From Bacteroidales bacterium (lineage in GTDB: Bacteria > Bacteroidota > Bacteroidia > Bacteroidales > UBA932), in NCBI GenBank assembly GCA_017619675.1, contig JAFZRX010000005.1, positions 22,095-86,094 of the forward strand: DNA of 64,000 nucleotides. The letters run 5' to 3'. The notes beneath the pieces are model-generated. The model was given only the letters and a program-made list of their open reading frames with translations, was not told where the DNA came from and did no database searches. A program made the translations under genes and the position numbers. Positions 34,227-54,630 of the stretch are shown piece after piece. Numbering within the stretch: position 1 is the first letter of the stretch; every line of letters begins with the position of its first letter.

Positions 34227-34335
34227 CGTGGAGCGTAACTGCTTGATAGTCAATGAAAAGATGGTTTCAATGGTAGTGATTTTGGGTACCATTGAAATGC
34301 TTATTTTATTGATTTACAGATACATACGCTCCACG
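34227..34335. repeat. REP-like palindromic element D (109 bp)
   Basis: Outer arms CGTGGAGCGTA (34227-34237) and TACGCTCCACG (34325-34335) are perfect complements. A perfect 11-bp inner palindrome, TTTCAATGGTA/TACCATTGAAA, lies at the centre. The inner flank GTAACTGCTTGATAGTCAAT resembles the same position in elements A and E. Length and nested architecture match the other copies, while the inner sequence is different. It sits between tRNA-Cys and the acetyltransferase gene. Confidence 0.75.
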
Positions 34336-34344
34336 CAGTTTTCA

Positions 34345-38218: not shown

Positions 38219-38242
38219 CATAATCTCCTTGAATTTTGGGTC

Positions 38243-38348
38243 CGTGGAGGTAACTTGTTGATGGTCAGCGAGATGGAACTTTTAACGGTCGCGAAATCGC
38301 GACCGTTAAAGTACAGTTCTCGCTGATTCCCAGCCACTTACCCCCACG
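38243..38348 (-). repeat. REP-like palindromic element A (106 bp, inverted copy of B)
   Basis: Three nested complementary segments: outer CGTGGAGGTAA.../...TTACCCCCACG, middle TCAGCGAGA/TCTCGCTGA, and a central perfect palindrome TTTAACGGTCGCGA/TCGCGACCGTTAAA with a 2-base loop. Its reverse complement differs from element B (39738-39843) at a single base. Together A and B form long inverted repeats around the symporter and TolB-like genes. The strand given is relative to B. Confidence 0.9.
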
Positions 38349-39676: not shown

Positions 39677-39737
39677 ATCATTTCCTTTCTTCATCTCAAT
39701 CCTACTTTCCTTCTGACAGGCCGTTCTGTATTTGGCC

Positions 39738-39843
39738 CGTGGGGGTAAGTGGCTGGGAATCAGCGAGAACTGTACTTTAACGGTCGCGATTTCGCGACCG
39801 TTAAAAGTTTCATCTCGCTGACCATCAACAAGTTACCTCCACG
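39738..39843 (+). repeat. REP-like palindromic element B (106 bp)
   Basis: Same nested architecture as A: outer CGTGGGGGTAA/TTACCTCCACG, middle TCAGCGAGA/TCTCGCTGA, and a central 14-bp-arm palindrome around CGGTCGCGATTTCGCGACCG. Just outside the outer arms GGCC and GGCC extend the pairing. It lies about 60 bases upstream of the RAYT promoter, in the same orientation as C. Confidence 0.9.
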
Positions 39844-39901
39844 GGCCTTAAATTAAACGTGTAATTTCAAGGGGATACGTTCAACGGAACGCCTATTCTG
39901 A

Positions 39902-39909
39902 TATCTTTG
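39902..39909 (+). promoter_or_regulatory. -7 element of the RAYT gene
   Basis: TATCTTTG; expected start near 39916, about 22 nt before the ATG. In place of a -33 TTG there is a small inverted repeat CGTTC-AACG-GAACG at 39878-39891, which could be an operator. Confidence 0.5.
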
Positions 39910-39937
39910 TTTTCAGTAATCAAAGTGAGGAAGGGCG

Positions 39938-40870
39938 ATGAGTAAGGATTACAGAAACTATCTCCCCGGTCAGGCACATCATGTGTATTGTAAGGCAGTC
40001 AACGGATACGTTATCTTCTATTCCTCGAGGGACTGTATTTACTTCTTGACTCTGTATTATCATCTTGCCAGGCGCTATGGTATAGTTACCAGGGCAGTCT
40101 CCATTATGCCTAATCACGTACATTCAAACCAGCAGGCTCTATCGGAAGAATCGTTCATGAATTTCAACCGGGACCTGACCAGGGATTTCGCCCGTGAGTA
40201 CAATAAGGAGCATAGAAGGAAGGGGAGACTGTTCCTTAAACCGTTCGGCTTCGCGCCTAAAACAGTTGGAAAGAAAATCAGGGATAATATCTCATATATC
40301 GTCAATAATCCTGTGGCCGGGAAACTGTCCGGAACTATTGACGGATACAGGTGGAACCTAATGGCCTACAGGAATAGTAACCATCCCTTTTCTGAAAAGA
40401 TAGTTCTTAGAAAAGCTTCCATGGGGCTTCGCCGGTCCCTTGCCCTCCTACAATATTTCTATGATAACGGCATCCCCCTGGATTATAACCGCCTGAGATT
40501 CTTGTTCAAAGGACTTGGTTCCAAGGAAACGGCACAATTGACAGACAGAATCATATCAATGCACAATTTCCTGGACTATGATGCTGTTGCGGAATATTAC
40601 CAAGGAGACATCGAGAACGCCGTAGTGTCAATCAGCCTCAATTCCGGAAGTGAGCATGACATTCCGGAAGACTATGAGGATTACAGCAAATACAAGATGA
40701 TGCTGCAGAAGACTAAAGCTTCAGGAATAGATCTCAAACAGTGCAATTTTGAGACGATGCCGGCGGATCATCTGGCCCGATTGGCAGAAATCTTCAGCAG
40801 TGCCGGGATTCCCATCAAACAGATCCGGAAATTCCTCCACCTAAAAATGGAAGACCGTGGAGGTAAGTGA
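39938..40870 (+). CDS. REP-associated tyrosine transposase (RAYT, Y1-type HUH nuclease)
   Basis: A 310-residue single-strand DNA transposase related to IS200/IS605 TnpA. The HUH metal motif is H60-V-H62 in IMPNHVHSNQQ, and the catalytic tyrosine is probably Tyr120 in NISYIVNNPVAGKL. About 150 C-terminal residues extend beyond the catalytic domain. RAYTs are host-retained, usually single-copy enzymes that recognise REP palindromes preceded by GTAG or GGAG; here the flanking elements carry GGAG in GTGGAGG. The gene lies between elements B and C, and its last codons and stop lie inside C. The residues after HVH (SNQQ) differ from the common HLLI, so activity should be tested. Confidence 0.9.
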   Translation: MSKDYRNYLPGQAHHVYCKAVNGYVIFYSSRDCIYFLTLYYHLARRYGIVTRAVSIMPNHVHSNQQALSEESFMNFNRDLTRDFAREYNKEHRRKGRLFLKPFGFAPKTVGKKIRDNISYIVNNPVAGKLSGTIDGYRWNLMAYRNSNHPFSEKIVLRKASMGLRRSLALLQYFYDNGIPLDYNRLRFLFKGLGSKETAQLTDRIISMHNFLDYDAVAEYYQGDIENAVVSISLNSGSEHDIPEDYEDYSKYKMMLQKTKASGIDLKQCNFETMPADHLARLAEIFSSAGIPIKQIRKFLHLKMEDRGGK

Positions 40871-40961
40871 TTGGAAGTCAGCGAGAAAGGTACTTTAACG
40901 GTCGCGATTTCGCGACCGTTAAAAGTTCTATCTCGCTTACCCTCAGTGGGTTACCTCCACG
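40856..40961 (+). repeat. REP-like palindromic element C (106 bp)
   Basis: Same orientation and length as B, with identical central palindrome (14-bp arms) and middle segments, but about 15 substitutions in the flanking parts. The left end encodes the final Gly-Gly-Lys and stop codon of the RAYT gene. Outer arms CGTGGAGGTAA/TTACCTCCACG remain perfectly paired. The next 35 bases before the following gene are G-rich and hold nothing recognised. Confidence 0.9.
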
Positions 40962-40996
40962 GGGGTTGCCCGCGGGTAGGTGGGCGGGGGAGGGAC

Positions 40997-42216: not shown

Positions 42217-43833
42217 CTAAAGTCCCAGGGTTGAGACGGCCTGCCGCTGGGCCTCGCTGAGCGGCCCTGGCGCGCAGGTGCCGTTGCCGGCGTCCGTGCA
42301 GGGGACGGAGTGGAAATCGTCCAGGATTTCCATGTAGTTGCGGAAGGAGTGGCGGAGCCGGGTGTTCATCAGCAGGCCTATGTACTGGAGTACCTGCAGG
42401 CCCAGGCTCAGGTCCTGGGTGACCGGGGTGCCTGCCGGGAATGTCATCAGGGAAAGGAACTGGCGCAGGAACTGCTCCTGGTCGTATTTCAGGCTGTATA
42501 TTGAAACGGCTTCCAGGGGGCCGATGTCCAGGCCGGAGGTTATGTTGGCGTAGAACCCGGATGCGGCCCGGGACTGTATTATCCTTTTTTTGTCCGGAGT
42601 GTAACTGGCAATCGTCTGCCTCTTGCTGTCATAGACGGTCTTGAAGAAATAGAAATCCCTCTTGAGTATCTTGCGGTCGCTTATGGCGATGCCGTATTCC
42701 GTGATTTCCTTCAAGGCCTCCAGCTGGGACGATATACCCATGTCTATCTGCGCGAGTTCGGCGTCGCGGCGCTGGGGGTTGAAGAAGAGGTTGAGCCGAA
42801 GTCCCTGAGGCTCAAGCCGATACTGGCGGTACCAGCGCCGTGACGCTGCGTCGTAGCGCATCCCGGCGGGGTGGGAGCGGAACCGGCCGAAGGCCTCGAT
42901 CCGCTCCATCACCGCCGGCTGTTTCACGTCCACGCACATCACCATCGGCCCCTTGTCAAAGAACGGCTCCAGCCCGCGGAAGGAATCGTATCCCCGGTCC
43001 GTGACCACCGTGATTCCTTTAAGGCCGGCCTTCTCCAGTTCGGACCGGAAGATTCCAATCCCGCGGGCGTCAGATACGGTCTCTGGGAACGAGGTGCAAA
43101 CCACCGGTATATGGCTGTCCAGGGAGTACGCCACCGCCTCTGCGGTGGAGTTGAAGTGGATGCGCTCCGTCTTCTGCCCCCATCTTCGGTCCGAAACCAA
43201 ATCCCCGAAAGAATGCCTGAACACCGAATCCACCGCACATAGGTTGTCCGATGCGAACCTGCCGCGCCGTATGTCCATGAACTTATGGAGCGAGGCGCGG
43301 CTGACCGCGGCCAGCGACTGCGTCACCATGGCCTCCAGGGGTCTGTCGGACGGCGCCTTTGCGGTGGCCTGCCACCGCCCGAAGCGCTGGAACGACATCC
43401 CCGTGAGGAATGGGAAGTACGCCAGCGTCAGGAGGTCGTCCGCGGCGGCGGGGCCGAAGGCTTCGGCCAGGTCGGCCCGAAGGGCGAACCTCTCCCCGAT
43501 GCGCTCCAGCAGCCAGATGTCGCCGAAGGCCTTCCCGCCGTCGCCGTCGCGGAAGGGGAGCGCGCTCCCGCCGGCGGGGGAGGCTTCCTCTATGGCGGAC
43601 AGGTCCCATCCTTCCGGGAAGACCAGCCGGCTCCTGGCCTCCGCCGAGGCCTGGAGCCAACGCTTTCCCGGAAGGAATCGCAGGTCATCGGTCACCGTTC
43701 CCCAATGCACCACGCTGTATTTCCGTTTCCCTTCATGGTCAACGGTATAGGGGTGCGTGGCGGCGTATGTATGGCCTCCGTTACGGTGTATGGAGATTTT
43801 GAATATGCTGTCCGGGCTGGATTTTCTGGCCAT
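42217..43833 (-). CDS. IS4-like DDE transposase (single copy in window)
   Basis: A 538-residue transposase with an RNase H-type DDE core. The first Asp is in LCAVDSVFRHS near residue 215, and the second is in GITVVTDRGYDSF near 275. The catalytic Glu lies in the IS4-type signature YSLKYDQEQFLRQF near 465, the equivalent of Y-(2)-R-(3)-E. The N-terminal half is an unusual, proline- and arginine-rich part. The ends AAATATAAAATG on the left and CATTTTAATATTT on the right are weakly complementary, but I cannot define terminal inverted repeats or a target duplication. It could be an IS1634-like element or a retained, immobile copy. Confidence 0.8.
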   Translation of the reverse strand: MARKSSPDSIFKISIHRNGGHTYAATHPYTVDHEGKRKYSVVHWGTVTDDLRFLPGKRWLQASAEARSRLVFPEGWDLSAIEEASPAGGSALPFRDGDGGKAFGDIWLLERIGERFALRADLAEAFGPAAADDLLTLAYFPFLTGMSFQRFGRWQATAKAPSDRPLEAMVTQSLAAVSRASLHKFMDIRRGRFASDNLCAVDSVFRHSFGDLVSDRRWGQKTERIHFNSTAEAVAYSLDSHIPVVCTSFPETVSDARGIGIFRSELEKAGLKGITVVTDRGYDSFRGLEPFFDKGPMVMCVDVKQPAVMERIEAFGRFRSHPAGMRYDAASRRWYRQYRLEPQGLRLNLFFNPQRRDAELAQIDMGISSQLEALKEITEYGIAISDRKILKRDFYFFKTVYDSKRQTIASYTPDKKRIIQSRAASGFYANITSGLDIGPLEAVSIYSLKYDQEQFLRQFLSLMTFPAGTPVTQDLSLGLQVLQYIGLLMNTRLRHSFRNYMEILDDFHSVPCTDAGNGTCAPGPLSEAQRQAVSTLGL

Positions 43834-54449: not shown

Positions 54450-54521
54450 ATCCCTAAGATACTACTTTCCACCAAAACTGACCTCTTTTTTGTTATACTT
54501 TTTTCAGTGCAGGATACTGCT

Positions 54522-54630
54522 CGTGGAGTGTAACTATCTGATAATCAATACATAATATAAAGACGCACTATCCAAAATTGATAATGCACCCACAAGTAAA
54601 ACCTTGACAATCAATCACTTGCACTCCACA
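54522..54630. repeat. REP-like palindromic element E (109 bp, degenerate)
   Basis: Outer arms GTGGAGTG (54524-54531) and CACTCCAC (54622-54629) are complementary. The flank GTAACTATCTGATAATCAAT aligns with element D and with A. A short inner palindrome GCACTATC/GATAATGC (one mismatch) is at the centre. The 109-bp span is the same as D, but the inner part has decayed. It lies between the TSCPD and DNA-repair genes. Confidence 0.6.

Follow-up and report, generated by a model that had tools for sequence, protein, structure and literature searches.

A RAYT-like transposase gene in a Bacteroidales genome and its probable family of long, modular REPIN-like palindromes

We analyzed a 64,000-nucleotide stretch (the window) of contig JAFZRX010000005.1 from the Bacteroidales assembly GCA_017619675.1, in which a gene related to the repetitive extragenic palindromic (REP)-associated tyrosine transposases (RAYTs) lies between two copies of a long palindrome. 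The original prediction had placed this gene between two same-orientation elements (B and C), with a third, reversed copy (A) nearby, and repeat finding bore this out. B (39737-39845) and C (40855-40963) are in direct orientation and 86% identical, A is 96% complementary to B over 123 nt and 87% complementary to C over 108 nt, and a 30-nt core, TTTAACGGTCGCGATTTCGCGACCGTTAAA, is identical in all three. The features at the locus are the following.

38242..38348, - strand: element A, class I palindrome, a reverse copy 98% identical to B in the genome search
39738..39844, + strand: element B, class I palindrome on the upstream side of the transposase gene
39776..39805, strand not specified: central hairpin of B, a 14-bp perfect stem, a gene-specific module
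39938..40870, + strand: RAYT-like HUH/Y1 transposase gene, 310 aa, with H60 and H62 (HUH), Y120 (YIVNNP) and a C-terminal helical domain from about residue 150
40856..40962, + strand: element C, class I palindrome on the downstream side, which shares the final codons and the stop with the transposase gene

Palindrome scoring gave 26 for B and 27 for C; in 24 scans of shuffled loci, the highest score was 12. Each of the three elements, taken with 15-nt flanks, folds as RNA at -70.7 to -74.6 kcal/mol. Element C supplies the last codons of the transposase gene. Given that A is a 98% reverse copy of B, the two make up an inverted pair around a 129-amino-acid open reading frame (ORF) and an SBF-type transporter gene. 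The prediction that GGAG would be found near each element end failed: the left end of B reads GTGGGGG, and GGAG is not kept in the family, whose common part is the motif TGATNATCA in each arm.

As expected of a RAYT with its HUH and Y-x-x-x-N-P signatures, residues H60, H62, Y120, N123 and N124 were invariant in 38 of 38 homologs, and P125 was present in 26. The solved TnpA-REP structure 4er8 ranked first against the window protein (Foldseek E value, 7.1e-5; Z score, 14.4 with 160 aligned residues), and 37 of the 38 homologs gave sub-threshold matches to RAYT families (E ≤ 0.01). The W-Q motif was absent from all 38 (WN here), and a fold search with the C-terminal domain gave no confident match. 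No match was found in viral contigs or, for the window protein, in a genome-contig collection.

We also looked at the elements across the window's genome (G000; 2.04 Mb in 17 contigs, 94.5% complete). A search for the central palindrome had been proposed, with confinement to this locus as an outcome that would count against the RAYT and REP reading. The 20-mer of the core was indeed confined to it (three occurrences, with none for a reversed control pattern), but the element itself is dispersed. The DNA search found seven more places beyond A, B and C, at 70 to 77% identity, and a covariance model built from ten copies returned 56 rows corresponding to at least 30 places on both strands, 28 of them at E ≤ 0.001 and 2 in the window. 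This is a lower bound, since 150 of 926 candidates were scored. An Rfam search gave one sub-threshold match only, away from the elements. Two diverged copies in the window are located as follows.

34227..34336, + strand: diverged copy with a CGTGGAG end and a centre in no assigned class (E value, 5.4e-15)
54521..54630, - strand: diverged copy of another class, outside the assigned ones (E value, 1.9e-7); its inverted repeat was not reported at the repeat-search settings used

The same genome carries three RAYT genes, paralogs at 56 to 60% identity: that of the window, a second at C6:122354-123271 (56% identical to it) and a frameshifted one at C6:108439-109301. By their centres, 29 elements fell into class I (15), class II, that of the frameshifted gene (8), class III, that of the third gene (1), and no class (5), counts in which class I is favored by a search model built from class I and a 42-bp mini-element is excluded. 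Cognate palindromes flank the window's gene and are found again elsewhere in this genome. At six places, on contigs C17, C14, C4 and C10, two elements stand 134 to 391 bp apart (start to start), and never as a pair of the same class. The class II gene is interrupted by its frameshift, yet eight elements of its class are present. The mini-element (C10:23200-23241) consists of one TGATNATCA arm between two end boxes and lacks a centre, the pattern expected from a central deletion.

These results bear on a transposon of the IS200/IS605 type, in which the gene and its flanking palindromes would move as a unit and the dispersed copies would be relics. The catalytic fold is the same, and the gene with B and C is missing at the matching junction of the closest relative (see below). 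However, the paralogs are not the near-identical copies of a multicopy insertion sequence, elements far outnumber genes (30 versus 3), the tyrosine motif is YxxNN(P) and not YxxxQ, and the flanks are palindromes of the same plan instead of distinct left and right ends. Moreover, no relative was found among 72,556 plasmid records with the window protein or 50,697 phage records with a relative's protein. We regard this reading as very unlikely.

We surveyed the flanks of homologous genes. Homologs at E < 1e-20 were present in 21 of 36 same-genus genomes, and a sub-alignment run against GTDB contigs gave 234 relatives; the record titles of the best 80 of these 234 assign them to Bacteroidales or Bacteroidia, with ruminant guts a frequent source. 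Nine of the 80 loci repeated earlier genes and were removed, leaving 71 further loci. In the first 39 loci, palindromes were found upstream (27), downstream (28) and inside the gene (2), figures that include 15 of 58 later removed by eye as off-plan before the consensus, module, pairing, protein-identity and position counts. In the 71 further loci, they stood upstream in 46 of 69 and downstream in 55 of 68, compared with 3 of 71 inside the gene, 10 of 63 far upstream and 5 of 62 far downstream. An arm-motif matrix fitted on the first set hit 55 of 68 upstream and 61 of 68 downstream flanks of these loci; among the controls, it hit the gene interior in 3 of 71 cases, far flanks in 8 of 125 and shuffled flanks in 2 of 136. 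In 44 of 78 cases, fewer than 53 nt separate the stop from the centre of the downstream palindrome, so that an element of about 106 bp reaches into the ORF, and the overlap seen for C is a common arrangement. Two distant same-genus RAYT-like genes have other surroundings, GGTCCA...TGGACC palindromes (L075) and direct repeats that are 79% identical and about 470 nt long (L093). The probe GTAANTNNYTGATNATCAR, with one mismatch, is weak and picks up unrelated members of the order as well, with as many as 71 hits in one genome; its median density was 4.69 per Mb in 21 same-genus genomes with a long RAYT and 2.00 in 15 without one (one-sided p, 0.010), a difference to which composition and incomplete assemblies may contribute.

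Elements across the family share one plan: a gene-specific terminal stem of about 10 bp (end box), a largely unpaired arm stretch with the shared motif (P-box) and a gene-specific central stem-loop of 10 to 14 bp. The arm consensus, GTAAnTnnYTGATNATCAGnnAnTTAC, sits between the variable end box and the variable centre, and a conserved AAA closes the arms at the foot of the centre. After 5 of 109 loci had been left out for short flanks, the match between the upstream and downstream flanks of one gene exceeded the 99th percentile of mismatched pairs in 62 of 104 loci, and in 54 the upstream flank was the best partner of the downstream one. The module comparison covered 257 arms from 94 genes (31 of 288 arms excluded for a motif score below 12 or an incomplete end or centre). 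Upstream and downstream elements of the same gene were 0.81 identical in the end box, 0.56 in the P-box and 0.91 in the centre; between different genes, the values were 0.43, 0.49 and 0.34. Centre identity climbed with protein identity, from 0.36 (proteins 0.45-0.55 identical) through 0.66 (0.65-0.80) to 0.89 (above 0.80); the corresponding P-box values were 0.49, 0.51 and 0.63.

Pairing followed the same division. Among 122 elements, arm-to-arm complementarity was 0.80 at the ends against a column expectation of 0.45 (z, 23), 0.93 against 0.35 in the centre (z, 34) and 0.515 against 0.496 in the P-box (z, 2.7), there slight and at the outermost positions only; because elements were chosen for palindromy, arm-to-arm identity is partly built in, a bias of which the upstream-versus-downstream identity and the matrix test on the 71 loci are free. 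Two paired forms of the P-box were considered and discarded. For a separate small hairpin within the P-box (clover form), there was no within-arm covariation in any of five registers (z, -3.1 to 0.4), and an inter-arm stem had no excess complementarity beyond the outermost positions. Lacking within-arm covariation and with only slight inter-arm pairing, TGATNATCA is thus kept as sequence. These comparisons establish, at the sequence level, the modular, long-hairpin build of the element, which when single-stranded would form a stem, an internal loop and a stem-loop.

Hairpins at gene ends might instead be bidirectional transcription terminators or other mRNA-end structures, with a coincidental RAYT next door. 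Along these lines, 53 of 78 downstream centres lie 20 to 60 nt beyond the stop, the arms end with the conserved AAA at the foot of the centre, and several dispersed copies stand between convergent genes (on crude ORF calls). Terminators, however, need neither the match between the two flanks of a gene, nor the TGATNATCA motif, nor divergence in step with the protein, and the copies make up species-specific families. We consider a terminator origin very unlikely.

Species specificity was apparent from both elements searched. Among 36 same-genus genomes, none but its own had a full-length match to the window element (one 27-nt match), and that of another genome (G006) was found full length there only, with partial matches of 25 to 39 nt in two other genomes. 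The closest relative of G000 by two sampled genes (G001; 82 to 85% identity) has an assembly 74% complete, in which no RAYT homolog was found. There, the transporter gene and the homolog of a 398-amino-acid gene are 80 bp apart, with RAYT and palindrome both absent between them and the gene order changed. The A-B inverted pair is located at the ends of the segment that has moved relative to G001 and may have caused the change. The element pair on C17 is missing from the orthologous intergenic region of G001, which has in turn a class II-like element where G000 is without one. Since the surrounding intergenic sequence differs too, these cases document gain or loss of elements (presence or absence) and not clean insertion. 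At a site on C7, the syntenic right gene is absent in relatives. A DDE-transposase-like gene lies at 42217-43833 of the window (sub-threshold Pfam match, 19.6 of 23 bits), and its homolog adjoins the transporter gene in G001. At another locus, a stretch of about 80 nt between two elements (L098:5190-5270) recurs at 76 to 83% in 4 of 6 relatives searched; ARAGORN predicted no tRNA in it.

The elements could also have been moved by general recombination or a different transposase, the RAYT-like protein merely binding them in a housekeeping role. The low copy number and the old, diverged copies (70 to 77% identity) would fit, and recombination could explain why the A-B pair borders a segment of different gene order in G001. 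On the other hand, centre and ends link each species-specific family to its own RAYT, and all 38 homologs keep the catalytic residues unchanged. Movement by such another route seems unlikely to us.

We conclude that the protein is probably a RAYT, that is, an HUH/Y1 nuclease similar to TnpA-REP, accompanied by a family of REPIN-like nonautonomous elements of its own. The predicted framing of a RAYT by REP-like palindromes is supported by the fold, the 37 sub-threshold family matches, the dispersed copies and the gene-specific matching of flanks. One or two cognate copies are held at the gene flanks, with further copies elsewhere in the genome. The enzyme would act on the element while it is single-stranded, during replication or transcription, and recognize the central and terminal stems as identity marks. 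The TGATNATCA strands may be a common docking sequence, perhaps for the C-terminal domain. The enzyme would cut beside the hairpin via Y120 and rejoin it elsewhere. Each paralog probably serves only its own class, because ends and centre change together with the protein.

Several observations weigh against this conclusion. Cleavage, binding and transposition are deduced from sequence. The window protein scores 30.4 bits with the RAYT model NF047646 of NCBIfam, whose curated cut-off is 80. The plan was not recognizable in the 15 first-set palindromes set aside, and in 42 of 104 loci the match between the flanks did not exceed the 99th percentile. Taken by themselves, the ten class I copies showed weak covariation (double changes in 4 of 29 pairs, a score reached by 29 of 500 shuffles; covariation term, +0.25). 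At least 30 places are few against the hundreds to thousands of classical REPs. No clean insertion was found, the orthologous intergenic regions of G001 differing by more than the element.

The suggestion that the element is longer than a classical REP and may form a separate class gained support: it measures about 106 to 107 nt, compared with 20 to 50 nt, and it has no conserved GT[AG]G foot (23 of 93 genes carry one in some arm, and 11 of 93 in all arms), although GTGG stands near the ends of the window element. We file the system as a RAYT with REPIN-like elements outside the classical REP definition by length and foot. A bolder proposal, which we put at somewhat less than an even chance, is a separate RAYT-palindrome class in one Bacteroidales genus. 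Its identity would reside in two paired modules (ends and centre) that diverge together with the enzyme, a constant unpaired TGATNATCA in each arm would be read by a genus-specific C-terminal domain, dozens of enzyme-element pairs would be mutually exclusive, and elements would mark rearrangement breakpoints.

The system bears on how RAYTs recognize and spread REPs. Since about 100 diverged enzyme-element pairs share one plan, their recognition code should be readable by comparison and testable by module swaps. Searches for GTAG-tagged short hairpins would miss this element type, and in the literature searched, palindromes of this length next to a 310-aa RAYT were not described for Bacteroidales. 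The system adds a lineage whose palindromes are named just "atypical" for Bacteroidetes in the passages of PMC6006769 on TnpA-Y1 subclasses.

The system resembles the REPtrons of Escherichia coli and Pseudomonas (RAYT/TnpA-REP plus REPs; PMC8266576, PMC3116915) in its HUH/Y1 fold, closest to 4er8, its cognate flanking palindromes and its dispersed copies, and one element class per paralog recalls Pseudomonas fluorescens SBW25, with three REPIN groups beside three RAYTs. It differs in its element of about 106 bp, with two gene-specific paired modules, a shared unpaired motif and no conserved GT[AG]G, and in a protein of double the length that has a helical C-terminal domain. The form of stem, internal loop and stem-loop has a parallel in E. 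coli, where the activity of a bulged REP depends on its bulge (PMC8266576); the same paper names E. coli TnpA-REP as the only RAYT with earlier substrate experiments. Like a REPIN, a REP doublet hairpin (PMC3116915), the element is a symmetric hairpin of two inverted halves, dispersed, nonautonomous and tied to an adjacent RAYT; in REPINs, however, REP half-sites have conserved ends and a variable spacer, whereas in our elements the conserved motif lies inside and the module most faithful to the gene is the centre. Subclass 2.6 of TnpA-Y1 (PMC6006769) shares the phylum and noncanonical gene-flanking structures ("atypical secondary structures," compared by description only) that recur in the genome, but has a median of 179 aa, WQ and YIH[QN]NP, against 310 aa, WN and YIVNNP. 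Subclass 2.4, with double-foot REPs (PMC6006769), shares the NH[IFV]H and YIxNNP motifs and, with the class I element, GTGG...CCAC at the two ends; its median is 194 aa, with WQ and without a C-terminal extension, and the double foot is not conserved in our family, whose RAYT is longer than either subclass as tabulated there. TIRYTs (TIRtrons) and subclass 2.1 (PMC3733652, PMC6006769) likewise combine long Y1 proteins that have an extra C-terminal domain with long flanking repeats, some self-complementary and some in genomic families, but their GGGGWSAS is not the shared motif here. Their C-terminal domain is helix-turn-helix or DnaA-C-like; ours is helical, with no confident fold match.
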